Source of the DNA: Chitinispirillaceae bacterium
GTDB lineage: Bacteria; Fibrobacterota; Chitinivibrionia; Chitinivibrionales; Chitinispirillaceae
Assembly: GCA_016929595.1 (NCBI GenBank)
Contig: JAFGIN010000151.1
Coordinates: 1 to 64,000, forward strand
Direction: 5' to 3'
Length of the DNA stretch: 64,000 nucleotides
The notes beneath the pieces are model-generated. The model had not been told where the DNA came from. It searched no databases and worked only from the letters and a program-made list of their open reading frames with translations. Position numbers and translations under genes: made by a program. Position 1 is the stretch's first letter. The number at the start of each line of letters is the position of its first letter. This document shows positions 39,757 to 62,304 of this stretch, piece after piece.

Positions 39757-40107
39757 TTATTTTTTTTTCTTTTCAGAATTTTTTTCATTTTTCACGGCAG
39801 TAACCAGAGGCATATCCTCCCCACCGGGTAAGCTTTTTTCTTTTTTAAGATGAATACGCTGGAGCATCCCCCCTTCAATAAGATTATTCCGTTCCAGAGG
39901 AACGTCCGTTAGAACACCTTTAAAAAAAATATCTCCTATAATAAACCCGGCAAACCAGAGAATCGAAGCGCCTAGTAATGATTTTATTATAGCAGGCAGT
40001 AGCAGATTAAGATTAAATGGATCTGATCCGGAAAAATGGATCGCCATTGAAGCAAAAAAGGTAATCAGTCCAATTATAAATGCAAGTTTCTTAATCCAGA
40101 AAACCAT
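39757..40107 (-). CDS. Small membrane protein between flhG and fliA, unknown
   Basis: 116 residues with two transmembrane helices (about 5-25 and 40-62) and a charged cytoplasmic tail ending NEKNSEKKKK. No family recognised. Spacings of 22 and 31 bp to flhG and fliA show co-transcription. A structural or regulatory role in flagellation is inferred from position only. Confidence 0.6.
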   Translation of the reverse strand: MVFWIKKLAFIIGLITFFASMAIHFSGSDPFNLNLLLPAIIKSLLGASILWFAGFIIGDIFFKGVLTDVPLERNNLIEGGMLQRIHLKKEKSLPGGEDMPLVTAVKNEKNSEKKKK

Positions 40108-42268: not shown

Positions 42269-44359
42269 TTACTGTGTTGATATCATGCCTAATGAACGAA
42301 TCTCTATACCTGAAACAATTTCATTATATGATAATACTATTAATTCACTGTAATTGTTCTCGGTAAGACGCTTGAATGCACTCCGGATTGTCGGAGAGCA
42401 CAATAAAATCGGTATATCTCCGGTCGTTTTTACTTTTTCAATAACAGGACGTGTCATTTCGAGTATTTTCCCGATCTCAGTCGGTGATATTCCAAATCTG
42501 AACCCCGATTCATTCTCCTGTAAAGTTCCTTCAAGCTTCGCTTCAAGATTAGGATCGAGTGTAATAACCGGTATGATATCATTCTCACCCTTAAATGTTT
42601 CGCATATTTGCTTTGCCAATGCATTTCTGACATATTCCGTAAGGATTTCTGTATTTTTATTTCTTTGAGCCACATTGGCCAGTGTTTCCAGAATTAATTG
42701 CAGATCGCGAATTGAGACTCTTTCTCTGAGCAGATTCTGCAATACCTTATGAACATCCCCGACTGACAATACACCTGGAATCAGTTCGTCTACAAGTACC
42801 GTATTGGTTTCCTTAACTGTATCAAGCAATTGACGAACATCCTGCCGTGTTAATAATTCGAAAGCATGCTTTCGTACAATTTCTGTTAAATGTGTCGCCA
42901 GAACCGCTGGTAATTCAACGACTGTATACCCGGACATTTCGGCATCATCTTTCTGACTTTCAGTAATCCATAATGCAGGCAGTCCGAATGCAGGTTCAAC
43001 GGTCTGGATCCCCCTGATTTTCTTTGTTGCAGTACCAGGATCCATTGCCAGGTATGCCCCATTCATCAGTTCACCTTTACCAACAAGTATTGTTCGTATT
43101 TTAATCCTGTATTCATTTGGTTTGAGCTGAATATTATCACGTATTCTTATTGGTGGAATAATGATGCCCAATTCTGTCGCAAGTTGTCTTCTGATCAAAG
43201 TGATCCGATCCAGAAGGTCCCCTCCCTGCTTGACATCAACAAGCGCGATCAGTCCATACCCGATCTCAAGTTCCATTGGATCGATATGAAGATAATCCTC
43301 CACGCGCTCTTCCTGTTCCGGTTGTTTGATTTCCTGTTTACTTTCTTCAGCAGTCTTTTTCTTTTCCTGGTTTTTTCCAACAAAAACAGCGGCAATACAT
43401 GCAGCACCAAGAATTATGAACGGTACTTTAGGAAACCCTGGAATAACAGCAAACAGTAACATAAGGCCACCGGCAACACCGAGTATCTTTGGATTTGATA
43501 AAAGTTGTCCGGTAATTTCATTTCCAAGATCATTCTGTGATGCTGCGCGGCTTACAAGAATACCTGCACCTGTCGATATCATGAGCGCCGGAATCTGGGA
43601 AACAAGACCATCACCAATCGTCAGTTGTGTATACGTGGACAGGGCTTCTGTAACACCCATTCCTAACTGCGCCATACCAATTATAAACCCGCCGATAACA
43701 TTTATGATGGTAATCAATATCCCCGCTACCGCATCACCTCGAACAAACTTTGAAGCTCCATCCATCGCGCCATAAAAATCGGCTTCTCTTGCAATTTGCA
43801 CTCTTCTGTTTCTCGCCTGCTCTTCATTGATCGTTCCAGCGTTAAGATCAGCATCAATGGCCATCTGCTTTCCAGGCATCGCATCCAATGTGAACCTTGC
43901 CGCAACTTCAGCAATTCTTCCGGCGCCTTTTGTAATAACGACAAACTGAATGATTACAATTATCAGGAATATTATCGAACCAACAACCATATTCCCTTTT
44001 GTAACGAATGTTCCAAAAACCTCTATAACCTCCCCGGCATCAGCCTGACTCAGAATCAGACGTGTTGAAGCAACATTCAATGATAACCGAAACAGTGTGA
44101 CAGTAAGCAGCAGAGATGGGAATACAGAAAATTCAAGGGCTTCACGAGCGTACATCGATACAAGCAGTATTATTATTGCAATTCCAAGATTCAAGGTTAA
44201 AAGTATATCCAGGAAAAAAGGCGGTACCGGGATAATCATCACAATGAGAATTCCAACTACACCCAGCACAATAATCAGATCACGCTGTTTAGTGATACTC
44301 TTCAAAAATGAATTTCCCATTATGCTTTGCATTGAAGAGGCCATGGTTCTGGAATTCAA
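42269..44359 (-). CDS. flhA: Flagellar export gate protein FlhA
   Basis: 696 residues, normal FlhA length. The N-terminal half has eight or so transmembrane helices and the FHIPEP motif region (PSLLLTVTLFRLSLNVASTR, then LDAMPGKQMAIDADLNAGTI). The C-terminal cytoplasmic domain has GYGLIALVDVKQGGDLLDRI and LPAVLATHLTEIVRKHAFEL. The start is TTG, overlapping the stop of the Ig-repeat lipoprotein gene (TTGA). ATG 44344 is an alternative five codons in. It forms the proton-linked export gate with FlhB and FliPQR. Confidence 0.95.
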   Translation of the reverse strand: MNSRTMASSMQSIMGNSFLKSITKQRDLIIVLGVVGILIVMIIPVPPFFLDILLTLNLGIAIIILLVSMYAREALEFSVFPSLLLTVTLFRLSLNVASTRLILSQADAGEVIEVFGTFVTKGNMVVGSIIFLIIVIIQFVVITKGAGRIAEVAARFTLDAMPGKQMAIDADLNAGTINEEQARNRRVQIAREADFYGAMDGASKFVRGDAVAGILITIINVIGGFIIGMAQLGMGVTEALSTYTQLTIGDGLVSQIPALMISTGAGILVSRAASQNDLGNEITGQLLSNPKILGVAGGLMLLFAVIPGFPKVPFIILGAACIAAVFVGKNQEKKKTAEESKQEIKQPEQEERVEDYLHIDPMELEIGYGLIALVDVKQGGDLLDRITLIRRQLATELGIIIPPIRIRDNIQLKPNEYRIKIRTILVGKGELMNGAYLAMDPGTATKKIRGIQTVEPAFGLPALWITESQKDDAEMSGYTVVELPAVLATHLTEIVRKHAFELLTRQDVRQLLDTVKETNTVLVDELIPGVLSVGDVHKVLQNLLRERVSIRDLQLILETLANVAQRNKNTEILTEYVRNALAKQICETFKGENDIIPVITLDPNLEAKLEGTLQENESGFRFGISPTEIGKILEMTRPVIEKVKTTGDIPILLCSPTIRSAFKRLTENNYSELIVLSYNEIVSGIEIRSLGMISTQ

Positions 44360-46326
44360 TTTCCGCTGCCTTTTACATTAAGATATACGTTTCTGATCGT
44401 ATAGTTTTTTATATCGTTGACAGAAATGATAAGAGTATCGGTATACGTCGAATCTACAGTCATATAATTACTCATCGTTTTTGAAATCTTTGAAATTCTG
44501 TTTTTATATAAAGATTCGCATCCAATTGTCAAAGTATCCCCCTGAAGATCGCGTGCAAAGACCGACACCGTTAAGGTATCGGGATAGACTGCAGCATATA
44601 CTATGTCTTTTTGAACATCTTTAAATACAGCGCTATCTATGATTATACTATCTATAACAGGTTCAGGCGAGTTAACATTCAAAAAGACTTTGAAAACATC
44701 AGTTAAAGCACCGTCAGTAATTGACAAAGATAGCGTATCAATACCTTTGGCGGAATGTGTCCGTAATATCAATCTATTCTCCACCTTTGATGTAACCCTG
44801 GATGAGTCTTTGATTTTCCATGAATATTTCACGGTATCTGCATTATCCAGATCCCGTATCCAGGTAGTCACAACGATCTGTTCATTATAAAAAGCCTGAT
44901 ACCATTCTGTACCACCTGGATTTTTATAATTTTTACCATTTATTTTCAGACTGTCAAATAGTGGAAAAATATCGTGTATATTGACAATAATCAGACTTTT
45001 CGCTGTAAGTTCATTATCAGAAACAGTAACCGTAATCGTATCTCTTGTTATAAGAAGTGGAGCAGAATAAACGACCGTACTTCCGGTATCGCTATTGAGT
45101 TTTCCTTTCTTTGCGTCCCATACGCAGGACAGTATAGTACTGTCGGGGTCATATAATTCGAGTGAGAGCTTTATTTTCTCAGACCCGATTCCATCTAAAA
45201 ACGTAAGGGCAGTATTAGTATCATTAACTACTGAACTGTCTGCAATAACCTTTTCAATAACTGGAGGTTTATTCTGGATTCTCTTTCCAATAAAGATGTA
45301 CCCAACAGTGCTGTCACCTTTGGAATCATGTAAAACGACAAGAAGCGTATCTATATTAAAGATATTTCTGGTTGCAACTACTTTGCAGTTTGAACTAGTA
45401 CAAATCAGCGATACACTGGCATTATTACCCGTATCTGGTATTAAGAGATTTTTTTTCAGGCTCCACTTTATTGTTGAAACCGTATCATAATTATCATGAT
45501 AATACAGTTTCAACCTCAATGTATCAATTTTTTCAAAGACAGCACTGGTCTTCCCACCTGAAAATTTGAACATTCCAGTGTTTATACGTACGCTATCGAT
45601 TACCGGTGGTGTATTAGGATAAACACGTTCAAGATAGAGTTCTTTCACAGCCTGCCCCTGAGCACGATCATACAGGGTAAAAATAAGAGTATCTTTAAAC
45701 TGTCCCGATGGACTGACATAACCAACACGAAATGGTTCTCCCGGGTATTTTTCCAATAGGTAATTACTCCCTGAAATGACCATATCAGGAGTTTTATTAT
45801 CAAGATCCCTGGCATACACTCTTATATTGAGCTTACGTATGGAATCATGAACATTTAATTTCCAGATCATTTCAGACGGTTTGAATGTTCGCGTACTTGC
45901 TTTCAGGCTGTCTATCACTACCGGTAAATTACTTACTTTTACGATAACAGGATTACTTCTCTTTATGTTCCCTCCTGTTCCGATATAGATTGTGTCATAG
46001 TAAAAATTATCAACAGAATCTTTATATCGCGGGTAGCTTTTCCATGAAAGGTATGCATGAAATTTTCTTCTATTCTTCAGGTACGTTGTATCATCAGCAC
46101 TATACAATCCACTCCCGGTTTTCCATGTCAATGATGAGAAAGATAGCGAATCGTTAGTTTCGATAATAGCGAGAATTGGCTCACCTGTAAATTCCGCAGC
46201 CACATTACCGGCATATTCAAGATTCAGCCGGATGGAATAGGTATGTTCGTTTTCAACAGGCATTGGTGAACAAAACAGGAAAACAACCACAAAAGATATG
46301 ATTATTCTTTGAATAGTCACTTTCAT
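44356..46326 (-). CDS. 656-residue Ig/cadherin-like repeat lipoprotein inside the flagellar operon
   Basis: The N-terminal signal (VTIQRIIISFVVVFLFC) ends in a Cys at 19 that could be lipidated. The rest is built from about six beta-rich modules of 80-100 residues, each opening with a PPVIDS-like phrase (LPVVIDSLKAS, TPPVIDSVRIN, KPPVIEKVIAD, FPLFDSLKING, EPVIDSIIIDS). Each contains a D-x-D-like DLDN/DPDS element typical of PKD or cadherin-type folds. No flagellar family is recognised. It overlaps flhB by four bases (ATGA) and flhA by four (TTGA), so it is locked into the operon between two export-gate genes. A periplasmic or outer-membrane partner of the basal body or an adhesin is possible. 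Confidence 0.65.
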   Translation of the reverse strand: MKVTIQRIIISFVVVFLFCSPMPVENEHTYSIRLNLEYAGNVAAEFTGEPILAIIETNDSLSFSSLTWKTGSGLYSADDTTYLKNRRKFHAYLSWKSYPRYKDSVDNFYYDTIYIGTGGNIKRSNPVIVKVSNLPVVIDSLKASTRTFKPSEMIWKLNVHDSIRKLNIRVYARDLDNKTPDMVISGSNYLLEKYPGEPFRVGYVSPSGQFKDTLIFTLYDRAQGQAVKELYLERVYPNTPPVIDSVRINTGMFKFSGGKTSAVFEKIDTLRLKLYYHDNYDTVSTIKWSLKKNLLIPDTGNNASVSLICTSSNCKVVATRNIFNIDTLLVVLHDSKGDSTVGYIFIGKRIQNKPPVIEKVIADSSVVNDTNTALTFLDGIGSEKIKLSLELYDPDSTILSCVWDAKKGKLNSDTGSTVVYSAPLLITRDTITVTVSDNELTAKSLIIVNIHDIFPLFDSLKINGKNYKNPGGTEWYQAFYNEQIVVTTWIRDLDNADTVKYSWKIKDSSRVTSKVENRLILRTHSAKGIDTLSLSITDGALTDVFKVFLNVNSPEPVIDSIIIDSAVFKDVQKDIVYAAVYPDTLTVSVFARDLQGDTLTIGCESLYKNRISKISKTMSNYMTVDSTYTDTLIISVNDIKNYTIRNVYLNVKGSGN

Positions 46327-47393
46327 GCAGCACTCCGGTTTTTTAATTTCAATACATAAGCCAGAATTTCAGCTATAGCAGTAAAAAATTCTATCGGTAT
46401 CGGTGACCCTTCAGTAACTTTATCATACATTGCTCTTGCAAGAGGTTTATCTTCAACAATCGGAATATTATTATCTATAGCAGTCTTTTTAATCTTAGCC
46501 GCAACGAGTCGTTTTCCTTTTGCAACAACAACCGGCGTATCATTTTCTAATGGTTCATATCGGATTGCGATTGCTATATGTGTAGGGTTTGTGACAACAA
46601 CAGTAGCTTTTGGCACCTGTTCCATCATTCTTCGTCTTGCCATTTCACGCTGAAGTGAACGAATTCTGGATTTTACAAGCGGATCACCATCCATCTGTTT
46701 TCGTTCCTCTTTTACCTCTTGTTTTGACATTTTCAACTGTTTTTCATGTTCATATCTCTGCCATGCATAGTCAAGAGCGGCTATTACGATTAAAATAACA
46801 GATATTCTTATAATTACATCAAAGCTTGTTGTTAAGATGAATCCCCATATTAACATAACCGACGAATCTGATAGTACTACCATCTCCTCAAAAGCTGCTT
46901 TGATAGTAACCCATGCAACTAAGGAAATAATTGATAATTTAAGAAGATTTTTAATTAATTCAACTACCGATCGCATTGAAAACAGTCTCTTGAAACCGCT
47001 AATTGGATTGATTTTTTCAAAATTTGGCATAATTGGTTTCAATGTAAACAAAAACCCAATCTGAACAACATTTGCGATTACTCCTATCAGAAGGATAACA
47101 CCAGCCACCGGCGTTATACATTTAAAAAATATTAAAGAAGCTTCTTTGGATATATAAACCAGTTCATTCACACTCATTTCCAATCTGCTCGAATGAATTA
47201 TAAATCTTTCCAGAAGAAATCCAAGTTGTCCCTGCATCCAGGAGCCGGTTATTTTCAACATGATAACAGCCGACAGCAGAACCAATACGGAATTCACTTC
47301 CGTACTTTTGGCAACAGTTCCTTTCTCTCTTGCATCCTGACGTTTCTTATCAGATGGCGTTTCGGTCCGTTCTTCTGAACTTTCATCAGCCAC
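46323..47393 (-). CDS. flhB: Flagellar export switch protein FlhB
   Basis: 356 residues. An N-terminal EERTETPSDKKRQDAREKG precedes four transmembrane helices. The C-terminal domain has the self-cleaving VVVTNPTHIAIAIRYEP site. FlhB switches export specificity from rod/hook to filament proteins when cleaved and in contact with FliK, which is encoded upstream in the same operon. 19 bp from fliR. Confidence 0.96.
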   Translation of the reverse strand: MADESSEERTETPSDKKRQDAREKGTVAKSTEVNSVLVLLSAVIMLKITGSWMQGQLGFLLERFIIHSSRLEMSVNELVYISKEASLIFFKCITPVAGVILLIGVIANVVQIGFLFTLKPIMPNFEKINPISGFKRLFSMRSVVELIKNLLKLSIISLVAWVTIKAAFEEMVVLSDSSVMLIWGFILTTSFDVIIRISVILIVIAALDYAWQRYEHEKQLKMSKQEVKEERKQMDGDPLVKSRIRSLQREMARRRMMEQVPKATVVVTNPTHIAIAIRYEPLENDTPVVVAKGKRLVAAKIKKTAIDNNIPIVEDKPLARAMYDKVTEGSPIPIEFFTAIAEILAYVLKLKNRSAA

Positions 47394-61026: not shown

Positions 61027-62304
61027 CTATCTTGAATACTGGTTTGGAGAAGCCCTGCCATTCCTGGCACCTGCGTCCAGAAGCAGTTTCACTATTATAT
61101 GCTGCCTGTATGCAAGAGCGTAATCCAGCGCAGTCCGTCCCTTATCATTTTCAATATTGACACTGGCGCCGGAGGCTACAAGGAACTCAACTGCATTTCT
61201 GTGTCCATTTGCAGCAGCATACATCAGAGCGGTACCGAGGATTTTGTTCTGCACATCTATATCTGCACCATACATCAGAAGTTCCTCGATGACATTAACA
61301 TGACCTTTTGATGCTGCGATAATCAGAGCATTACTTCCATAACTGTTAACTTCATTAATATTTACAAATTTGGTCACGAGCAGTTCCCGGACTTTTTCAA
61401 TTTCACCATTTCTTGAATATGTCATCAACCGGGAGTATCCATCAGGGGTTTTCGTCAGCAGTACCTTTTCTAACTTTGTAAACCTGTTTTTCATCGCAAT
61501 CATTAGCGGGGTATCCTCATTGCGGTCTTTTACATTTACATCAGCACCAGATTCAAGCAGCATGGCTGCAACTGATATACGATTATACTTACAAGCAATA
61601 AGAAGCGGTGTATCACCTTTACTGTTAGAAAAGCTGCAGTCTGCACCACGATTGAGGAGCATGCGGACGAGAGCAGTATCGTTGCTGCCACATGCCAGAT
61701 GAAGAGCTGATATCCCGGATTCATCACGGGCATTAACATCTGCACCAGCATCGAGAAGTATCTTTACAATACCAGGTTTTTTCTTTTTCAAAGCACTTAA
61801 AAGCGGTGGGTTCGAAATGGAGTAAACATCTGCTCCATATTGAAGCAGTAGCGATACGGAAGCAGAATCACCATTTGCAATTGCAACTGCAAGTGGAGAA
61901 TTTCCAAGGGTATCGACAAGATTCACATTTGCGCCATGCAAAAGCAGAATATCAACCACCTGTGGGTATCTATTCTTTACAGCATAAAGAAGTGCTGTAG
62001 AGCCACCGTGATTCTGAATATCCGGATCCACTTTAAATCGCAGCAGCGACTCAACTACAACAAGACACCCTGAAGAGGCAGCCGACATAAGTACTGTTGT
62101 TCCGACACTATCCTGAATATCAGGATCAACACCACCGTGAAGAGCTTCATAGAGCAGATCTCTGTTGCACGTCCATATTGACTTTACCAGTTTTAAATAT
62201 GAGAGGGAATCATTTGCTGAAACTGTCGTATCTGAATAGTCAGCCTCAGCCGGGAGTACCAGGCAGCATAGAATAAGAGATAAAAGAAAGCCATTCAGCA
62301 TCAT
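61027..62304 (-). CDS. Secreted ankyrin-repeat protein
   Basis: 425 residues with a signal peptide (about 1-22, MLNGFLLSLILCCLVLPAEA). About eleven ankyrin repeats of 33 residues follow, such as DSVGTTVLMSAASSGCLVVV, HGGSTALLYAVKNRYPQVVD, DESGISALHLACGSNDTALV and NEDTPLMIAMKNRFTKLEKV. A shorter spacer near 275-300 (TKTPDGYSRLMTYSRNGEIE) splits the array. Periplasmic ankyrin proteins are scaffold modules; the partner is unknown. It is 17 bp after the Crp-like gene, so the two are co-transcribed. Confidence 0.82.
   Translation of the reverse strand: MMLNGFLLSLILCCLVLPAEADYSDTTVSANDSLSYLKLVKSIWTCNRDLLYEALHGGVDPDIQDSVGTTVLMSAASSGCLVVVESLLRFKVDPDIQNHGGSTALLYAVKNRYPQVVDILLLHGANVNLVDTLGNSPLAVAIANGDSASVSLLLQYGADVYSISNPPLLSALKKKKPGIVKILLDAGADVNARDESGISALHLACGSNDTALVRMLLNRGADCSFSNSKGDTPLLIACKYNRISVAAMLLESGADVNVKDRNEDTPLMIAMKNRFTKLEKVLLTKTPDGYSRLMTYSRNGEIEKVRELLVTKFVNINEVNSYGSNALIIAASKGHVNVIEELLMYGADIDVQNKILGTALMYAAANGHRNAVEFLVASGASVNIENDKGRTALDYALAYRQHIIVKLLLDAGARNGRASPNQYSR

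Follow-up and report, generated by a model that had tools for sequence, protein, structure and literature searches.

A Candidate Accessory Protein of the Flagellar Basal Body Encoded Between flhB and flhA in Fibrobacterota

Few bacterial machines are as highly conserved as the flagellar export gate, which has only a small number of extracytoplasmic partners. The stretch of DNA analysed here (64,000 nucleotides, referred to below as the window, on a contig of a 6.6-Mb draft genome) carries, between the gate genes flhB and flhA, an open reading frame for a predicted (lipo)protein of 656 residues, which we call X. The question is whether X belongs to the flagellum and, if so, in what capacity. 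According to the original prediction, its synthesis keeps pace with that of the export gate, and it may be a new envelope part of the flagellum or a partner of the basal body.

The Gene and Its Neighbors

Gene X occupies positions 44356..46326 of the minus strand, begins with ATG and has orthologues in the same slot. It is flanked on the same strand by flhB (46323..47393; Pfam PF01312, E 2.6e-126) and by flhA (42269..44359; Pfam PF00771, E 4.8e-275), the TTG start of which aligns with the MNS starts of its homologues. The four-base overlaps originally read on both sides are borne out by the sequence: ATGA (46323..46326, minus strand) joins the flhB stop to the X start, and TTGA (44356..44359, minus strand) joins the X stop to the flhA start. 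An equal overlap with flhB is kept across families in about ten genomes, and the overlap with flhA is also four bases long in G001, G017, G027, and G032. A Shine-Dalgarno-like GGAG (46333..46336, minus strand) lies within the 3' end of flhB, 6 nt upstream of the X ATG. The GC content of X matches that of flhB (0.368 vs 0.370), so that nothing in its composition suggests foreign DNA inserted recently.

The surrounding run on the minus strand reads flgD, flgE, motA, motB, fliL, fliM, fliN, fliO, fliP, fliQ, fliR, flhB, X, flhA, flhF, flhG, fliA, with all names other than flhB and flhA assigned by eye. A small membrane protein of 116 residues is encoded between flhG and fliA (39757-40107), and a similar small ORF is present in that slot in most relatives. 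An ankyrin-repeat protein with a signal sequence (61027-62304) adjoins the flagellar run. Chitinispirillum alkaliphilum, a cultured relative, is motile and has a single flagellum (PMC4814513).

Domain Organization and Membrane Attachment

X opens with a signal sequence, residues 1-18 (MKVTIQRIIISFVVVFLF; 46273..46326, minus strand), which includes a low-confidence helix (residues 4-15) in the AlphaFold2 model. Six beta-sandwich domains come after Cys19 (46270..46272, minus strand), the predicted site of lipid attachment. D1, a conserved N-terminal beta domain (about residues 25-134; 45925..46254, minus strand), is delimited by the alignment, the model, and a profile match to homologues that have a beta-propeller tail; it has no family match in Pfam or NCBIfam. 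D2, the first Ig-like domain (about residues 135-236; 45619..45924, minus strand), is common to both tail types by profile comparison and alignment. D3-D6 (44359..45618, minus strand) are four more Ig-like repeats that form a variable tail, recognized from the model, from Foldseek matches to Ig/cadherin arrays, and from comparison of the repeats with BLAST, in which D3 and D4 match at 3e-5 and D5 and D6 at 1e-5. The count of about six repeats is accordingly revised to five Ig-like repeats and a distinct D1, while the PPVIDS-like openings ascribed to them do stand at the beginning of most of D2-D6.

The AlphaFold2 model of X, computed with 13 homologues, has a mean pLDDT of 80 and a pTM of 0.32, and the domains are therefore to be viewed as beads with uncertain mutual orientation. 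Foldseek returned titin, contactin, and cadherin-type arrays as the best matches to the model, and a sequence search of the PDB gave a single marginal Ig match (E 0.048). Nothing in Pfam or NCBIfam exceeded the cut-off for X of the window, Big_9 scoring 12.1 bits against the 23.6 required by Pfam; Big_9 was matched by 4 of 13 X members, at best with 1.6e-14. X is thus similar to Big_9/PKD-type bacterial Ig repeats in these matches and in its modeled beads, but differs from them in that the window protein lies under the cut-off and the family is set by D1-D2 and gene position.

Across the order to which the window belongs, orthologues of X with 21-30% identity lie between flhB and flhA. Other families of the phylum have in this slot a protein of 550-600 residues, of which the first ~230 are homologous to the N-terminus of X and the tail is a beta-propeller instead of Ig repeats. 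The N-terminal module is related across the two tail types with a profile-profile E of 1e-15 (hhalign) and, by an independent HMM, with E 1e-14 to 1e-5 vs 0.16 for the best of 1200 shuffles; five positions (C19, W95, D111, S124, and N133) are invariant in 17 aligned sequences. In the AlphaFold2 model of a propeller-tail homologue, the propeller part has pLDDT mostly 80-90 and the N-terminal part is poorly modeled; Foldseek matched this model to propellers. Its tail is like that of NHL/6-bladed propeller lipoproteins, although matches of curated families to it were no better than E 0.02. Judging by the aligned sequences, the D1-D2 end is under constraint and the tail is exchangeable.

The X family is defined here by D1-D2 with the Cys, encoded next to flhB and/or flhA, and the window protein belongs to it. 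No description of X was found in the literature or in curated families, and a search for it on plasmids gave none. A pattern-based search of named genomes produced no match, X being too divergent for that method. The N-terminal module was not found in 12 genomes of Gammaproteobacteria, Acidobacteriota, and others, a weak negative. Weak Ig-only profile matches in Fibrobacter (model 346-676) were long repeat proteins without the N-terminal module and were rejected as orthologues; matches of the module itself in Fibrobacter, with E about 5e-4, lay mostly in the signal region of a short frame (about 195-254 aa) and were not counted.

How is X held at the membrane? The residue preceding the lipidated Cys is usually Ala, Gly, or Ser. 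In X the signal ends in FLF before Cys19, with Phe at -1, which weakens the original lipoprotein assignment, whereas the signal and the Cys, invariant in all 17 aligned homologues, uphold it. Lipidation at Cys19 is probable, not certain; from signal and Cys we infer that X is placed outside the cytoplasm and held at the membrane. A bulky -1 residue in the Ig clade may instead block signal peptidase II, so that X would stay tethered in the inner membrane beside the gate, a possible though doubtful arrangement. It agrees with the mostly bulky -1 residue of Ig-tail members, set against Gly in 6 of the 10 other putative lipoproteins in 429 kb of the same genome, but one of these others has the same FLFC and the lipobox is standard in most propeller-tail homologues.

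Distribution in the Fibrobacterota

Among 168 Fibrobacterota genomes, most of them drafts in which a single absence may be an assembly gap, 62 have flhA and one (G026) has flhB only; these 63 were counted as flagellate, and 105 have neither gene. Strong matches to the N-terminal module occur in 32 of the 63 flagellate genomes and in 0 of the 105 others (Fisher p about 3e-17, uncorrected for relatedness). A 33rd case is G067: at the end of a contig, flhA is preceded by a propeller tail that is truncated. Every strong match, over ten families, adjoins flhB and/or flhA. The gene lies between the two in the window and in G017, G024, G025, G027, G028, G030, G032, G033, G035, G041, G043, G064, and G158.

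The linkage is kept where the gene order has been rearranged. In genus g34 of family f8, flhB is at another place in G071, G073, and G074, the three genomes checked, and in all members read X lies 1-13 bp before flhA or overlaps it. X is still behind flhB in G152; in G006, which is included in the 32, flhA has moved off by about 23 kb, and stops interrupt the X that follows flhB. In family f14 (G166 and G167; L177:1454-4186 and L193), flhB and X form a single open frame, in which the FlhB C-terminus runs into the signal and Cys of X. As a C-terminal extension of FlhB, X of f14 would be an inner-membrane protein, in accord with the tether discussed above, but cleavage at the signal, which is retained, could release X from the fusion, or internal GTG codons could provide X with a separate start. 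The insertion that the original prediction would have us look for in related genomes is thus widespread, occurrence as an unlinked surface protein is contradicted, and the proposed tie to the flagellar export gate gains from the restriction to flagellate genomes, the overlaps, and the in-frame fusion.

Is X an adhesin or glycan-binding protein of the cell surface that merely rides in a flagellar operon? Ig arrays and propellers are common in such proteins, which speaks against a flagellar reading of X, and polysaccharide degradation is known from cultured members of the phylum (PMC4814513). We consider this highly unlikely in view of the exclusive link to flhA/flhB over ten families, a link that outlasts breaks in the gene order, the fusion to FlhB, and the absence of X from all searched relatives that lack flagella.

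Several other export-gate genes were observed in these genomes. G033 has on contig C92 (L085) a second, divergent set of the fliP-fliR-flhB-flhA type, with about 37% identity to that of the window, possibly a separate type III secretion system. Extra copies of flhA are present in G161 and G163. A small separate gene for the FlhB C-terminal domain alone (FlhX-like; G000:C77:30146-30364) has counterparts in most genomes of the phylum with flhB and in some where no full-length flhB was found.

X is absent from families f7 and f11 and from most of f1 (G005; the G003/G008/G016 group; the G004/G007/G009/G012 group). These genomes keep flhB, flhA and, with few exceptions, flgH, which indicates that X is an accessory, dispensable for the machine; in many of them flhB is directly followed by flhA, so that absence there is not an assembly gap. 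In a tree of FlhB and FlhA, the Ig-tail and propeller-tail groups form separate branches, the whole propeller branch with weak support (0.63), and the X-less lineages are nested among X-bearing ones. X is therefore probably ancestral and was lost several times, as far as this tree can tell. Absence in sister strains with normal motility had been named as an outcome that would speak against a flagellar role; at the level of gene content, such absence is observed, in X-less sisters with flhB directly followed by flhA.

FlgH, the protein of the L ring, is normally a lipoprotein. In seven genomes of the phylum looked at, with and without X, it seems to have no lipid Cys (the signal ends, e.g., in VSA before SG; loci L161:5539-6333, which is flgH of G000, L157-L160, L163, and L164). 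Neither flgH, present with and without X, nor FlgH lipidation, absent with and without X, was retained as a correlate of X.

Possible Roles at the Basal Body

Two known proteins are useful for comparison. FapH (HP0838) of Helicobacter pylori is likewise a lineage-specific lipoprotein encoded in an operon with a motor gene, and is an accessory unneeded for motility in soft agar (PMC11756786). It differs from X in its link to flgP and not to flhB/flhA, and the part of its description consulted mentions no FlhB fusion (PMC11756786); the comparison is one of description. Flagellar accessory families in Pfam and NCBIfam gave no match to X members. In the manner of FapH, many outer-membrane-anchored copies of X might form a ring or collar around the rod that protects the outer membrane or braces the motor. 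This is a tentative idea to which we give limited credence. X is operon-linked and lineage-specific, and a flagellum can be had without it, just as motility does not require FapH (PMC11756786); an extra outer-membrane anchor could be useful where FlgH has no lipid Cys. However, FlgH is unlipidated in X-less genomes too, the homologous part of X is membrane-proximal and its tail swapped, and a small number of copies agrees better with the FlhB fusion and with coupling to gate genes that are themselves low-copy.

The second protein, FlhE, has about 130 residues and is soluble, and its gene is located downstream of flhA. Like X, this enterobacterial protein is extracytoplasmic, encoded with the export-gate genes (flhBAE), and a lineage-specific recruit (PMC11247099). 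By the same logic of neighborhood, X could be a periplasmic chaperone or guard of rod and ring assembly, a counterpart of FlhE, itself periplasmic and recruited recently in Gammaproteobacteria (PMC11247099). We find this conceivable but unlikely, as X is several times longer, apparently membrane-anchored, and not matched by the Pfam family of FlhE (no match to that profile among the Pfam matches at E<=0.1 for 13 X members). FlhE and FapH do show that such accessories are recruited by lineages (PMC11756786, PMC11247099).

The reading that we favor, with a probability of roughly 0.6, is that X is an ancient accessory to the basal body of the flagellum, serving assembly of the basal body or its fitting into the envelope, so far known only in Fibrobacterota and comparable in its working to the lineage-specific FapH or FlhE. 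X would be exported by the general secretory path via its own signal and held at the membrane by the lipidated Cys19 or an uncleaved signal. The membrane-proximal D1-D2 would be the working or docking part, with the tail, an Ig rod or elsewhere a beta-propeller, extending farther into the envelope. Translational coupling to both gate genes would keep the synthesis of X in step with the gate and similarly low; together with the FlhB fusion, it suggests that X is present in few copies and acts at every basal body. X may serve whenever a basal body is built, for instance by guiding or guarding the assembly of rod and rings or by fitting the basal body into the envelope. Binding to the basal body, a part in its assembly or in the envelope, and a place as a structural envelope part are what comparison leads us to infer. 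The ring, gate-tether, and chaperone versions discussed above compete with this reading yet overlap with it. A rather unlikely extension counts X as an additional subunit of the Fibrobacterota export gate, located outside the cytoplasm: an inner-membrane-tethered partner of FlhB (covalent in f14) whose exchangeable Ig or propeller tail would act as a sensor or organizer of rod, wall, or rings, with feedback on export.

In summary, natural sisters without X and natural FlhB fusions make the role of X directly testable. A protein family that stays next to flhB/flhA phylum-wide, in most of the families that swim, whose base is conserved, whose tail can be exchanged, and which is naturally fused to FlhB in one family, is very probably an undescribed part of the flagella of Fibrobacterota.
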